From Methylobacter sp. (GTDB lineage Bacteria > Pseudomonadota > Gammaproteobacteria > Methylococcales > Methylomonadaceae): a stretch of DNA of 5,354 nucleotides. The stretch covers positions 2,758-8,111 of the forward strand of contig PMJA01000350.1 of the NCBI GenBank assembly GCA_003158415.1, read 5' to 3'. The position numbers and the translations under genes were made by a program. Numbering within the stretch: position 1 is the stretch's first letter; every line of letters begins with the position of its first letter. Below, in pieces: positions 2,980 through 5,249 of this stretch. Under the pieces are notes generated by a model. That model was not told the DNA's origin. It ran no database searches and was given only the letters and a program-made list of their open reading frames with translations.

Positions 2980-3711
2980 ATGCTAAAGAACCGATTTATT
3001 AGACAATTGTTCAGCAGTTTTCTGGATTTAGCGCCGATCCTTGCCGTTGTTTTGATTTTTCAGGTTCTGGTTATCGGTAAACCCGTACCTGATGTTGCCC
3101 GTTTAATGATCGGCATGCTTTTTGTTGTATTCGGTCTTTGCCTGTTTATCCAGGGATTGGAACTCAGTTTGCTGCCGTTGGGTGAAGCGATGGCATACGA
3201 TTTTGCCCGCAAAGGCAGTTTATTCTGGCTATTGGCTTTTGCATTTTGTCTGGGTTTTAGCGCCGCCATTGCCGAACCGGCCCTGGTTGCGGTCGCCGAA
3301 AAAGCGGCAACCAGCGCCAGTGCCGGTCATGTCATTGAACAAACCCAAGCCGCCAGGGATCGTTATGGCTTAGGATTTCGGCTAACCATCGCGCTGTCTG
3401 TGGGCCTTGCTATTTTGATCGGCGTGTTAAGAATTATCCGGGGTTGGCCGGTCTATTACCCAATTTTCTGCGCGTACGGCGGCGTAGCCCTGATAACGCC
3501 GTTTGCACCCGCCGAGATTATCGGCATCGCCTACGATTCAGGCGGCATCGCCACCTCGACCCTTACCGTGCCGCTGGTGACTGCGCTGGGCGTAGGATTG
3601 GCGACGGCCATCAAAGGCCGCAACCCGATAACAGACGGCTTTGGACTACTCGTCTTCGCCTCCTTGGCGCCGATGATTTTCGTGATGCTTTACGGGATGC
3701 TATATGCTTGA
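2980..3711 (+). CDS. DUF1538 family membrane protein, first of a tandem pair (putative antiporter subunit)
   Basis: Integral inner-membrane protein of 243 residues with about six to seven hydrophobic segments (roughly 13-33, 40-60, 82-106, 133-152, 158-180, 190-212 and 220-242). Signature blocks shared with its neighbour are FQVLVIGKP (27-35), GLELSLLPLGEAMA (59-72), AEPALVAVA (98-106), AYDSGG (184-189), VPLVTALGVGLA (197-208) and GRNPITDGFG (213-222). These identify DUF1538. In Halomonas, a pair of such proteins (UmpAB) was reported as a two-component Na+(Li+,K+)/H+ antiporter; that this pair does the same is inference. A polar stretch of about 25 residues (107-131) is longer than the corresponding loop in the partner. 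It opens a four-gene cluster and its TGA lies inside the next coding sequence (8-nt overlap). No signal peptide beyond the first membrane segment. Confidence 0.88.
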   Translation: MLKNRFIRQLFSSFLDLAPILAVVLIFQVLVIGKPVPDVARLMIGMLFVVFGLCLFIQGLELSLLPLGEAMAYDFARKGSLFWLLAFAFCLGFSAAIAEPALVAVAEKAATSASAGHVIEQTQAARDRYGLGFRLTIALSVGLAILIGVLRIIRGWPVYYPIFCAYGGVALITPFAPAEIIGIAYDSGGIATSTLTVPLVTALGVGLATAIKGRNPITDGFGLLVFASLAPMIFVMLYGMLYA

Positions 3712-4483
3712 ATGGCTAGTACATTTCGCGCTGAAACTGCTGGAAACCTGTAGAAACATTTTACCGATAGCCGTCGTTATCATCGGCTTTCAGCTGTTGG
3801 TCATACGCAAACCCTTAGCGCATCCCAAAAAAATCGTGGTCGGGTTTGTTTTTGTTTTACTCGGCATAGTTTTTTTTCTGGAAGGACTGGACATGGCGCT
3901 ATTCCCGCTGGGAAACTTGATGGCGACGCAACTGACGACACCCGAATTTCTGGGCGTTAATCCTGGGCTACAACCGGTAGTCTGGCAGAATTATCGCTGG
4001 GTTTATAGCTTTGCCGCCAGCCTAGGGTTCGCTACCGCTTTAGCTGAACCGACTTTGCTGGCGGTCGCCATCAAAGTCGACCGTATTTCCGGCGGCACCA
4101 TCCGCGCCTGGGGACTGCGTATTGCCGTCGCTCTGGGCGTCGCTATCGGGCTTGCTCTGGGTACTTTTTGCATCGTCACCGGCACGGGGCCTTATTTTTT
4201 CATTATCGCAGGCTATATCATCGTCATAATACAAACGCTGTTTGCGCCTAAACTGATTATTGCCTTGGCTTATGACACAGGCAGCATAACAACATCAATG
4301 GTCACCGTGCCGCTGGTGACTTCATTGGGACTGGGTCTAGCGGACGCTGTACCGGGTCGAAACCCGCTAACGGACGGTTTCGGCTTAATCGCCTTTGCCA
4401 GTTTATTTCCCATCATCTCTGTGCTGGCTTACGCCCAAATCGCCCATAATCTCAGCAAACGCAGCCTCTCATCCAAACTGTAA
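3704..4483 (+). CDS. DUF1538 family membrane protein, second of a tandem pair (putative antiporter subunit)
   Basis: Integral membrane protein of 259 residues, clearly paralogous to the preceding one: FQLLVIRKP (29-37), GLDMALFPLGNLMA (61-74), AEPTLLAVA (114-122), AYDTGS (189-194), VPLVTSLGLGLADAV (203-217) and GRNPLTDGFG (218-227). Hydrophobic segments fall at about 17-35, 43-62, 100-123, 137-158, 162-180, 195-216 and 224-246, followed by a basic C-terminal tail (KRSLSSKL). Between the second and third segments it has a stretch of about 24 residues (75-98, with TTPEFLGVNPGLQPVVWQNY) that the first subunit lacks. The start at 3704 overlaps the upstream stop by 8 nt, with GGGA at 3694-3697 as ribosome site, implying coupled synthesis and probably a heteromeric complex. 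Transport of monovalent cations against protons is inferred from the Halomonas UmpAB report; no substrate can be read from the sequence. Confidence 0.88.
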   Translation: MLEWLVHFALKLLETCRNILPIAVVIIGFQLLVIRKPLAHPKKIVVGFVFVLLGIVFFLEGLDMALFPLGNLMATQLTTPEFLGVNPGLQPVVWQNYRWVYSFAASLGFATALAEPTLLAVAIKVDRISGGTIRAWGLRIAVALGVAIGLALGTFCIVTGTGPYFFIIAGYIIVIIQTLFAPKLIIALAYDTGSITTSMVTVPLVTSLGLGLADAVPGRNPLTDGFGLIAFASLFPIISVLAYAQIAHNLSKRSLSSKL

Positions 4484-4486
4484 GGA
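4482..4486 (+). promoter_or_regulatory. Ribosome binding site of the PII-like gene
   Basis: AAGGA five bases before the ATG at 4492 is a strong Shine-Dalgarno. It overlaps the TAA stop of the second DUF1538 gene, so termination and initiation are close neighbours, consistent with coupled translation. Confidence 0.65.
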
Positions 4487-4491
4487 AAACC

Positions 4492-4842
4492 ATGCATTTC
4501 AAATTAATTATTGCCTTTGTCGAAGATGATAAAACCGATCTGGTGCTCGATACCGCACGCCAAAGCGGCGCAAAAGGCGCCACGGTTATCAACCATGCCC
4601 GTGGCGAAGGCTTAAAACAGTCCAAAACCTTTTTCGGCCTGTCTTTGGAATCGCCCAGGGATGTGTTAATGTTTCTGGTTGAAGAACATCTCAGCCGACA
4701 CATTCTGGAAAAAATCGCCAAGGTTGCGCAATTCGACAACAAACCCGGCACCGGCATTGCTTTTCAGGTTGATGTTGAGGACGCTATCGGCGTCATGCGT
4801 CAGGTTGAAGAATTAACCCAAGAACTTGAGGATAAAATATGA
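4492..4842 (+). CDS. PII-like (GlnB-fold) signalling protein
   Basis: Small soluble protein of 116 residues with the PII plan: strand 2-10, helix 13-25, strand 29-38, loop, strand 58-63, helix 66-80, B-loop and strand 89-94, then an acidic C-terminal helix. GAKGATVINHARGEG (26-40) corresponds to the GITGMTV...KGFG region of GlnB, and NKPGTGIAF (83-91) to its nucleotide-binding GKIGDGKIF loop. PII proteins are trimers that bind ATP/ADP and other effectors and control partners, often membrane transporters. The T-loop (about 38-57) is some six residues shorter than in GlnB and lacks Tyr51, the uridylylation site; the second Lys of the B-loop is Ile89. Nitrogen-type GlnB/GlnK signalling is therefore unlikely. 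It follows the DUF1538 pair by 8 nt and overlaps the CBS gene by 4 nt, suggesting it controls that transporter (inference). Confidence 0.85.
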   Translation: MHFKLIIAFVEDDKTDLVLDTARQSGAKGATVINHARGEGLKQSKTFFGLSLESPRDVLMFLVEEHLSRHILEKIAKVAQFDNKPGTGIAFQVDVEDAIGVMRQVEELTQELEDKI

Positions 4843-5249
4843 CAATAAAGAATGCCTTAATCCGTGTCAAAGATGTCATGAAAACCGATTTCGGCACCAT
4901 AGACGGCGTAGCCACAGTTGCCGATGCGTTAATAAAGATGAAGTCGCTTAAAACGGCTGTCCTTATTGTCAATAAACGCAATGAGGATGATGAATACGGT
5001 ATGCTGACTTCCGGCGATATTGCCCGCCATGTGCTGGCTAAAGACCGGGCGCCGGATCGGGTTAACGTCTATGAAATCATGAATAAACCCGTCATTTCGG
5101 TACATCCCGATATGGATATCCGCTATTGCTCGCGGCTATTTGCCAACTATAATCTGGTCAGGGCGCCGGTTCTTGAAAATAACAAGGTTATCGGCATAGT
5201 GAGTCCCAATTCATTGGTGCTGGATGGTTTGTATAAAACGTTTCAATAA
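4839..5249 (+). CDS. Protein of two CBS domains (putative adenine-nucleotide sensor)
   Basis: A 136-residue soluble protein that is essentially one CBS pair (Bateman module): CBS1 about residues 10-66 (VKDVMKTDFGTI, then GMLTSGDIARHV at 54-65) and CBS2 about 78-132 (YEIMNKPVISVHPD, then GIVSPNSLV at 119-127). CBS pairs commonly bind AMP, ADP, ATP or related ligands in a cleft and gate attached enzymes or transporters. CBS1 keeps the Thr57/Asp60 pair that usually contacts ribose and phosphate; CBS2 has Ser125 at the Asp position, so probably only one site is canonical. No DNA-binding or catalytic domain is fused. ATGA overlap with the PII-like stop and a GAGG at 4828-4831, seven bases upstream, support the start and coupling. 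As the last gene of the DUF1538 cluster it is likely a regulatory subunit of that system (inference). No terminator is visible after it. Confidence 0.9.
   Translation: MTIKNALIRVKDVMKTDFGTIDGVATVADALIKMKSLKTAVLIVNKRNEDDEYGMLTSGDIARHVLAKDRAPDRVNVYEIMNKPVISVHPDMDIRYCSRLFANYNLVRAPVLENNKVIGIVSPNSLVLDGLYKTFQ

Follow-up and report, generated by a model that had tools for sequence, protein, structure and literature searches.

The stretch of DNA analysed here, called the window in what follows, comprises 5,354 nucleotides of a contig from Methylobacter sp. (PMJA01000350.1, positions 2,758 to 8,111 of the forward strand), the source being a draft genome of 3.1 Mb that is about 80% complete. It carries four genes in tight order on one strand, coding for two DUF1538 membrane proteins related to UmpA and UmpB, a PII-like protein and a protein with a CBS pair, and the association between DUF1538 proteins and PII is the main subject of this analysis. 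The four genes are the following.

2980..3711, + strand: umpA-like gene, DUF1538 membrane protein of 243 amino acids (Pfam PF07556, 206.9 bits; NCBIfam UmpA, 314.4 bits, cut-off of 490 not reached)
3704..4483, + strand: umpB-like gene, DUF1538 membrane protein of 259 amino acids with a basic C-terminal tail (Pfam PF07556, 204.2 bits; NCBIfam UmpB, 288.1 bits, cut-off of 500 not reached)
4492..4842, + strand: PII-like gene, protein of 116 amino acids with a divergent PII fold and a shortened T-loop, KTFFGL (Pfam P-II, 45.2 bits, cut-off 25)
4839..5249, + strand: CBS-pair gene, protein of 136 amino acids (Pfam PF00571, 69.4 bits, two stretches; PDB code: 5nmu, E 3.3e-23)

The umpA and umpB frames overlap by 8 nucleotides, a gap of 8 nucleotides separates umpB from the PII-like gene, and the stop of the latter shares the letters ATGA with the start of the CBS gene. 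Both membrane proteins exceed the Pfam cut-off for DUF1538 (22.6 bits), being paralogues of 37-39% identity whose best NCBIfam matches are UmpA and UmpB, in matching gene order. For the PII-like protein the NCBIfam search gave no hit, and the PII fold is seen in its predicted model. An earlier note, made from the sequence alone, had placed these four frames at the same positions and described them as a paralogous DUF1538 pair with a PII-fold protein and a CBS pair; the positions, the Pfam matches and the identity between UmpA and UmpB all bear this out.

In a sample of 101 genomes from the same family as the window, the PII-like gene is present in 69, and in all 69 a CBS match adjoins it on the same contig and strand, with gaps of -1 to 44 nucleotides between the matches. 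DUF1538 is found in these 69 genomes and additionally in G064, whose contig is cut within umpB; in 68 of the 69, DUF1538 shares the contig of the PII-like gene, the remaining case (G019) being one in which contig ends fall between umpB and PII. The other 31 genomes give no match to any gene of the cluster, except for weak CBS matches in 3. This all-or-none presence suggests that the genes of the DUF1538-PII-CBS set are acquired and lost together. A 376-amino acid open frame in G027 was considered as a PII-UmpB fusion and discarded, the extra length being an overlapping frame.

A scan with one genome per species retrieved at least 483 relatives, the best 80 of the 483 being treated as named loci; these were ranked by PII similarity, so that close kin are over-represented. 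The whole cluster is present in 76 of the 80, the other four are cut by contig ends (L131, L139, L153 and L162), and none contradicts the arrangement. Seventy-five of the 76 have the order umpA-umpB-PII-CBS (74 by a scripted rule, and L145, in which the overlap of the PII frame with umpB exceeds the tolerance), and one has a fused UmpAB followed by PII and CBS (L175). PII and CBS are both present in 79 named loci, and the ATGA junction is found again in 68 of these. These loci include Methylobacter, Crenothrix, Methylotuvimicrobium, Methylophaga, Thalassotalea, Aliikangiella and further Gammaproteobacteria, and the closest among the best 80 (L099 and L100, metagenome genomes of Methylococcaceae/Methylococcales) have PII-like proteins 98% identical to that of the window. 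Also, the whole cluster is present in Methylotuvimicrobium buryatense 5G (L120), which we take to be a cultivated methanotroph, making the question directly testable there. The flanks of the cluster vary, with 41 upstream families in 64 loci and 45 downstream families in 74, and no upstream family reaches more than 7 of the 64 (yajQ itself being left out of this count). This control is crude, as it takes the longest frame of at least 120 amino acids on either strand near the cluster, and some of these neighbours may be spurious frames. Chance clustering is rejected because of the 69/69 adjacency, the absence of contradicting named loci and the changing flanks.

At the level of the phylum, PII-like matches are found in 118 of 397 genomes, DUF1538 in 111 and both in 107 (Fisher p 3.6e-78, not corrected for kinship), the adjacency of the genes having been checked for part of the DUF1538 genes in the 111. 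Of the four genomes with DUF1538 only, a divergent PII gene adjoins it in two (G264 and G332), having escaped the single-sequence search; G305 is a fragment, and G317 has no PII nearby. Eleven genomes have PII matches without DUF1538: seven of these matches are canonical GlnB-type (G245, G340, G342, G360, G386, G426 and G453), solo relatives occur in G122, G217 and G229 (the last at a contig end), and the eleventh genome, G259, was left out. In 40 wider PII loci, with flanks of about 5 kb where the contig allowed, DUF1538 lies beside PII in 25 (L088 as a partial frame), and in 20 loci with weak matches there are 12 such cases, 7 canonical PII genes and one (L227) that is the solo gene of L072 again. 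Three architectures are observed: separate UmpA and UmpB; a fused UmpAB of about 500 amino acids with PII and CBS (L093-L096); and a fused UmpAB of about 600 amino acids accompanied by one PII gene or two, to which in some cases a CPA2-type antiporter or K+ channel-like protein is added in the same orientation (L090, L210, L212). One locus (L065:3499-7687) holds two tandem sets on one strand, namely a DUF1538 protein of about 500 amino acids, PII and CBS, and then PII, umpA and umpB.

Beyond the phylum, distant DUF1538 genes (27-30% identity) occur in nine plasmid records, and in all seven examined a PII-family gene lies directly downstream, the other two records being from species already covered by the seven. 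Five of these cases come from annotation (two Alphaproteobacteria, three Clostridia) and two from a profile search (Clostridia); the annotation of the Chelativorans record shows the first DUF1538 gene as a short piece. No CBS gene is listed in the five annotated stretches. The clostridial PII frames have at least 217 amino acids and look like tandem PII domains, Pfam finding two stretches in one of the three tested. Fused DUF1538 proteins are present, by protein name among the matches listed, in Persephonella, Epsilonproteobacteria and Pirellulaceae. The constant core is thus DUF1538 plus PII, with CBS not part of it in many distant relatives. The earlier note had proposed a search for a conserved DUF1538-DUF1538-PII-like-CBS order, its rarity outside close relatives counting as a refutation. 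For DUF1538-PII this refutation fails, the order being kept across Pseudomonadota and Clostridia; the order with CBS is common in the gammaproteobacterial loci but lacking in many distant ones.

The strongest sign that PII partners the transporter itself is its natural fusion to it. With the fused UmpAB of L175 as query, a search gave, among the 120 matches listed of 4,632, two proteins (P0322, 642 amino acids, and P0323, 639 amino acids) in which a pair of DUF1538 domains is followed by a P-II domain at the C-terminus (36.3 and 38.7 bits; cut-off 25), the order of the domains being that of the genes in the operon. A single frameshift artefact is unlikely because the two proteins are 84% identical and come from different source collections. 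PII proteins form trimers, and if the fused PII domain trimerises as in the rest of its family, each PII trimer would carry three UmpAB units. Such a protein implies a testable stoichiometry, and it offers a single-chain target for structure work. The predicted model of P0322 has a mean predicted local distance difference test score (pLDDT) of 82.6 and a predicted template modelling score of 0.74. For the UmpAB fold, Foldseek gave no match at E <= 0.001, which does not indicate a new fold; in the VIA-align structure comparison, the rows are filled by the PII domain, with the PII-like PotN (PDB code: 7o4x) among them. Alignment A4 for the fused model was left unused, the UmpB rows being apparently laid on the UmpA half. 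A further protein from this search, P0263 (759 amino acids), has three tandem DUF1538 domains instead of the usual two.

Nine genomes in the family sample, belonging to three genera, have a second PII-like gene with 42-49% identity to that of the window. In eight of the nine, a protein of about 660 amino acids matching the CPA2 profile adjoins this paralogue, upstream, downstream or convergent; for the ninth (L272), no CPA2-type protein is found within about 5 kb. The CPA2-type protein of L018 has the Pfam domains Na_H_Exchanger, TrkA_N and TrkA_C, the names CPA2 and KefB/YbaL being those that we presume for these TrkA_N/TrkA_C antiporters. These proteins are like UmpAB in having a PII-like gene as neighbour and unlike it in belonging to another membrane domain family and in having a TrkA_N domain of their own. 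That two unrelated cation/proton antiporters have a PII branch in common suggests ion/proton exchange as the process under PII control. A partner-specific T-loop was also considered, as the loop of the CPA2-linked paralogue seemed unlike KTFFGL, and was dropped, a similar loop adjoining umpA-umpB in L065. In three loci a K+ channel-like protein lies 5' of umpA on the same strand (directly so in L090:1846-3375 and L084:7070-8761; also in L210:7581-8945), the one of L090 having Ion_trans_2 and TrkA_N/C domains (Pfam, L090 only). These neighbours suggest K+ as the transported ion.

Sensing of nitrogen, carbon and energy is the textbook role of PII proteins, and in canonical GlnB/GlnK the T-loop carries the motif YRGAEY with Tyr51. 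In the PII-like protein this motif is absent and the loop is five residues shorter than in three canonical proteins (alignment A8). The canonical residues for ATP and 2-oxoglutarate are described as Gln39, Lys90, Arg101 and Arg103 (PMC8395244). In 41 aligned PII-like proteins, the Lys90 position is Ile and the Arg101 position is Gly in all 41, Arg103 is kept in one and Gln39 in two, and a Thr and a Gly of the ligand cleft are invariant (41/41). As the phosphate- and 2-oxoglutarate-binding residues are replaced, a canonical ATP/ADP/2-oxoglutarate readout appears unlikely. The source genome carries a separate canonical PII. A second P-II match in that genome (G000:C83:11556-11808) lies in two pieces, perhaps by a frameshift or an assembly error.

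For the CBS protein, Pfam finds two motifs, and the Asp of such motifs is the ribose-binding residue. Asp60 of CBS-1 is present in 45 of 45 sequences; position 125 of CBS-2 is Asp in 15 of the 45 and Ser in the window. The closest solved CBS pair by sequence is that of CBS-CP12 (5nmu), although the window protein has no CP12 domain, ending after the CBS pair (136 amino acids against 208). The two separate nucleotide sensors proposed in the earlier note are consequently retained in part: the CBS pair, as a putative sensor, keeps the CBS-1 Asp, whereas the PII-like protein is unlikely to be a canonical sensor given the residues replaced in the 41 sequences.

PII proteins that enter a membrane transporter through the T-loop are known from AmtB-GlnK, to which the present system would bear this likeness; unlike GlnK, the PII-like protein has the canonical Tyr51, Gln39, Lys90, Arg101 and Arg103 replaced or missing. 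AmtB-GlnK is named alongside SbtA-SbtB in a study where the trimer of the PII-like SbtB caps the SbtA trimer on its cytosolic face, with the T-loop inserted into the transporter (PMC8352866). There too, the transporter gene shares an operon with a PII-like gene of its own, whose product has a PII-like fold, but SbtA is a Na+/bicarbonate symporter with a distinct fold and SbtB reportedly senses cAMP/AMP; the passages of that study drawn on here mention no CBS partner (PMC8352866). The membrane pair itself corresponds to UmpAB of Halomonas zhaodongensis, described as a heterodimeric Na+(Li+,K+)/H+ antiporter, with two paralogous DUF1538 genes in the order UmpA-UmpB and with overlapping frames (PMC5484666). 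The window proteins differ from it in their scores under the equivalog cut-offs. In the main text of that paper PII and CBS are not mentioned, and the 4.2-kb clone as described there holds only ORF1 to ORF4 (PMC5484666). Papers on cable bacteria that name UmpAB homologues speak of salinity, with PII unmentioned in the passages concerned (PMC12093952, PMC10030654), and in a pH-prediction study DUF1538 appears in a table of the section devoted to key genes of pH adaptation, in keeping with a role in pH balance (PMC13255231). No paper describing a DUF1538-PII link was found in the open-licence literature, subscription papers not being covered. Within that literature, UmpAB as an antiporter and PII control of transporters are already known, and the link between them would be new.

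Taken together, the cluster probably codes for a cation/proton antiporter, UmpAB, with a dedicated PII regulator on its cytosolic face and a CBS protein as a second input. By their homology to UmpAB, UmpA and UmpB are predicted to form a heteromeric monovalent cation/proton antiporter, as the earlier note had supposed, and a dedicated PII-type partner is supported by the conserved order, the all-or-none presence in the family, the reach over Pseudomonadota and Clostridia and the two UmpA-UmpB-PII fusions. The PII-like protein would dock on the cytosolic face of UmpAB, presumably as a trimer, with UmpAB heterodimers arranged around its threefold axis and the short KTFFGL loop touching the cytosolic mouth. 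There it may restrain the exchanger, or set its pH or ion threshold, by a ligand other than ATP or 2-oxoglutarate, and by analogy with SbtA-SbtB this ligand or the state of the CBS protein could release the restraint. The CBS dimer, in turn, would read an adenosine nucleotide and act on PII or UmpAB, coupling ion and pH balance to the energy state. A removable brake fits better than an essential subunit because UmpAB from Halomonas is active alone in Escherichia coli (PMC5484666).

Several observations nonetheless weigh against this proposal. The Halomonas pair needs neither of the small proteins for its activity in E. coli (PMC5484666), and both window membrane proteins miss the NCBIfam equivalog cut-offs. 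In the P0322 model, parts of the linker (519-534) and of the T-loop (565-586) have a pLDDT below 50, so that the docking is not readable. The CPA2-linked paralogue is limited to three genera. No UmpAB lies near PII in 15 of the 40 wider loci (L089 being contig-cut), and for several of these solo copies the genome also carries a UmpAB-PII locus elsewhere. Also, five DUF1538 pairs without an adjoining PII (L234, L250, L254, L239 and L241) were found among 15 re-examined phylum genomes, the PII-CBS pair is placed apart from UmpAB in two genomes (G184 and G252; L051 and L044), and the CBS gene is missing in many distant clusters.

PII proteins commonly have many targets, and the small proteins could be general signalling proteins that act on enzymes or transcription and are merely co-regulated with the transporter. 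The PII-like relatives without UmpAB nearby (14 of the 40 loci, excluding the contig-cut L089) and the displaced PII-CBS pairs of G184 and G252 speak for it, but it does not account for UmpA, UmpB and PII fused in one polypeptide, nor for a link that persists across very distant DUF1538 architectures despite changes in the other neighbours, and the genome has a separate canonical PII; this explanation is unlikely. Another explanation, rather unlikely as well, would make the PII-like protein a structural subunit for the assembly or stability of UmpAB and leave the sensing to the CBS protein. The close companionship, the natural fusion and the replaced canonical ligand residues would all be expected from such a subunit. 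Nonetheless, the ligand-cleft Thr and Gly are invariant, UmpAB is found in some genomes with no PII gene adjoining it, and for the Halomonas antiporter the expression of umpA and umpB is enough for activity in E. coli (PMC5484666).

Finally, the membrane pair may transport something else, such as bicarbonate or an organic anion together with Na+, and PII may act like SbtB on SbtA, the nearest worked example (PMC8352866). The scores below the antiporter equivalog cut-offs leave room for this; however, among named families the highest-scoring matches are to the subunits of the sole characterised Na+(Li+,K+)/H+ antiporter pair, and the PII paralogue and some clusters lie beside CPA2 antiporters or a K+ channel-like protein, which makes this explanation very doubtful. 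A broader version of the antiporter-regulator proposal, held tentatively and at somewhat less than even confidence, is that a widespread and unrecognised PII branch specialises in cation/proton antiporters, serving two or more unrelated families of them (DUF1538/UmpAB and CPA2). For UmpAB, this branch would supply a near-obligate partner capping a trimer of UmpA-UmpB heterodimers and binding a non-canonical ligand, with the CBS protein as a gammaproteobacterial overlay that gives one exchanger two signals. If true, Na+/K+-proton exchange, and hence ion and pH homeostasis, would come under PII control, and the DUF1538 antiporters, for which one experimental study was found, would gain their missing regulation.

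With respect to the PII-like relatives without UmpAB nearby (L066-L072, L076, L080, L081, L091, L092, L097 and L098), a further class of partners is possible; several of these loci have as neighbours what we take to be an SH3-like exported protein and an argB-like gene, or an FAD oxidoreductase. In some genomes, membrane genes presumed to be of the DUF21/CNNM type lie directly 5' of umpA (L087:6912-9513 and L234:144-1376). Between positions 2380 and 5354 of the window, promoter-like sites show no excess over shuffled sequences (4 against 3.7, standard deviation 2.0), and terminator-like sites number 6 against 4.0 (standard deviation 2.1), from which nothing is drawn. At its left end, the window has on the - strand a fragment of an M18 aminopeptidase gene and an msrB-type (SelR) gene, followed on the + strand by a CCA tRNA nucleotidyltransferase gene, yajQ and then umpA, umpB, the PII-like gene and the CBS pair. 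The yajQ gene (2406-2936, + strand) ends 43 nucleotides 5' of umpA, and co-transcription with the cluster is possible.

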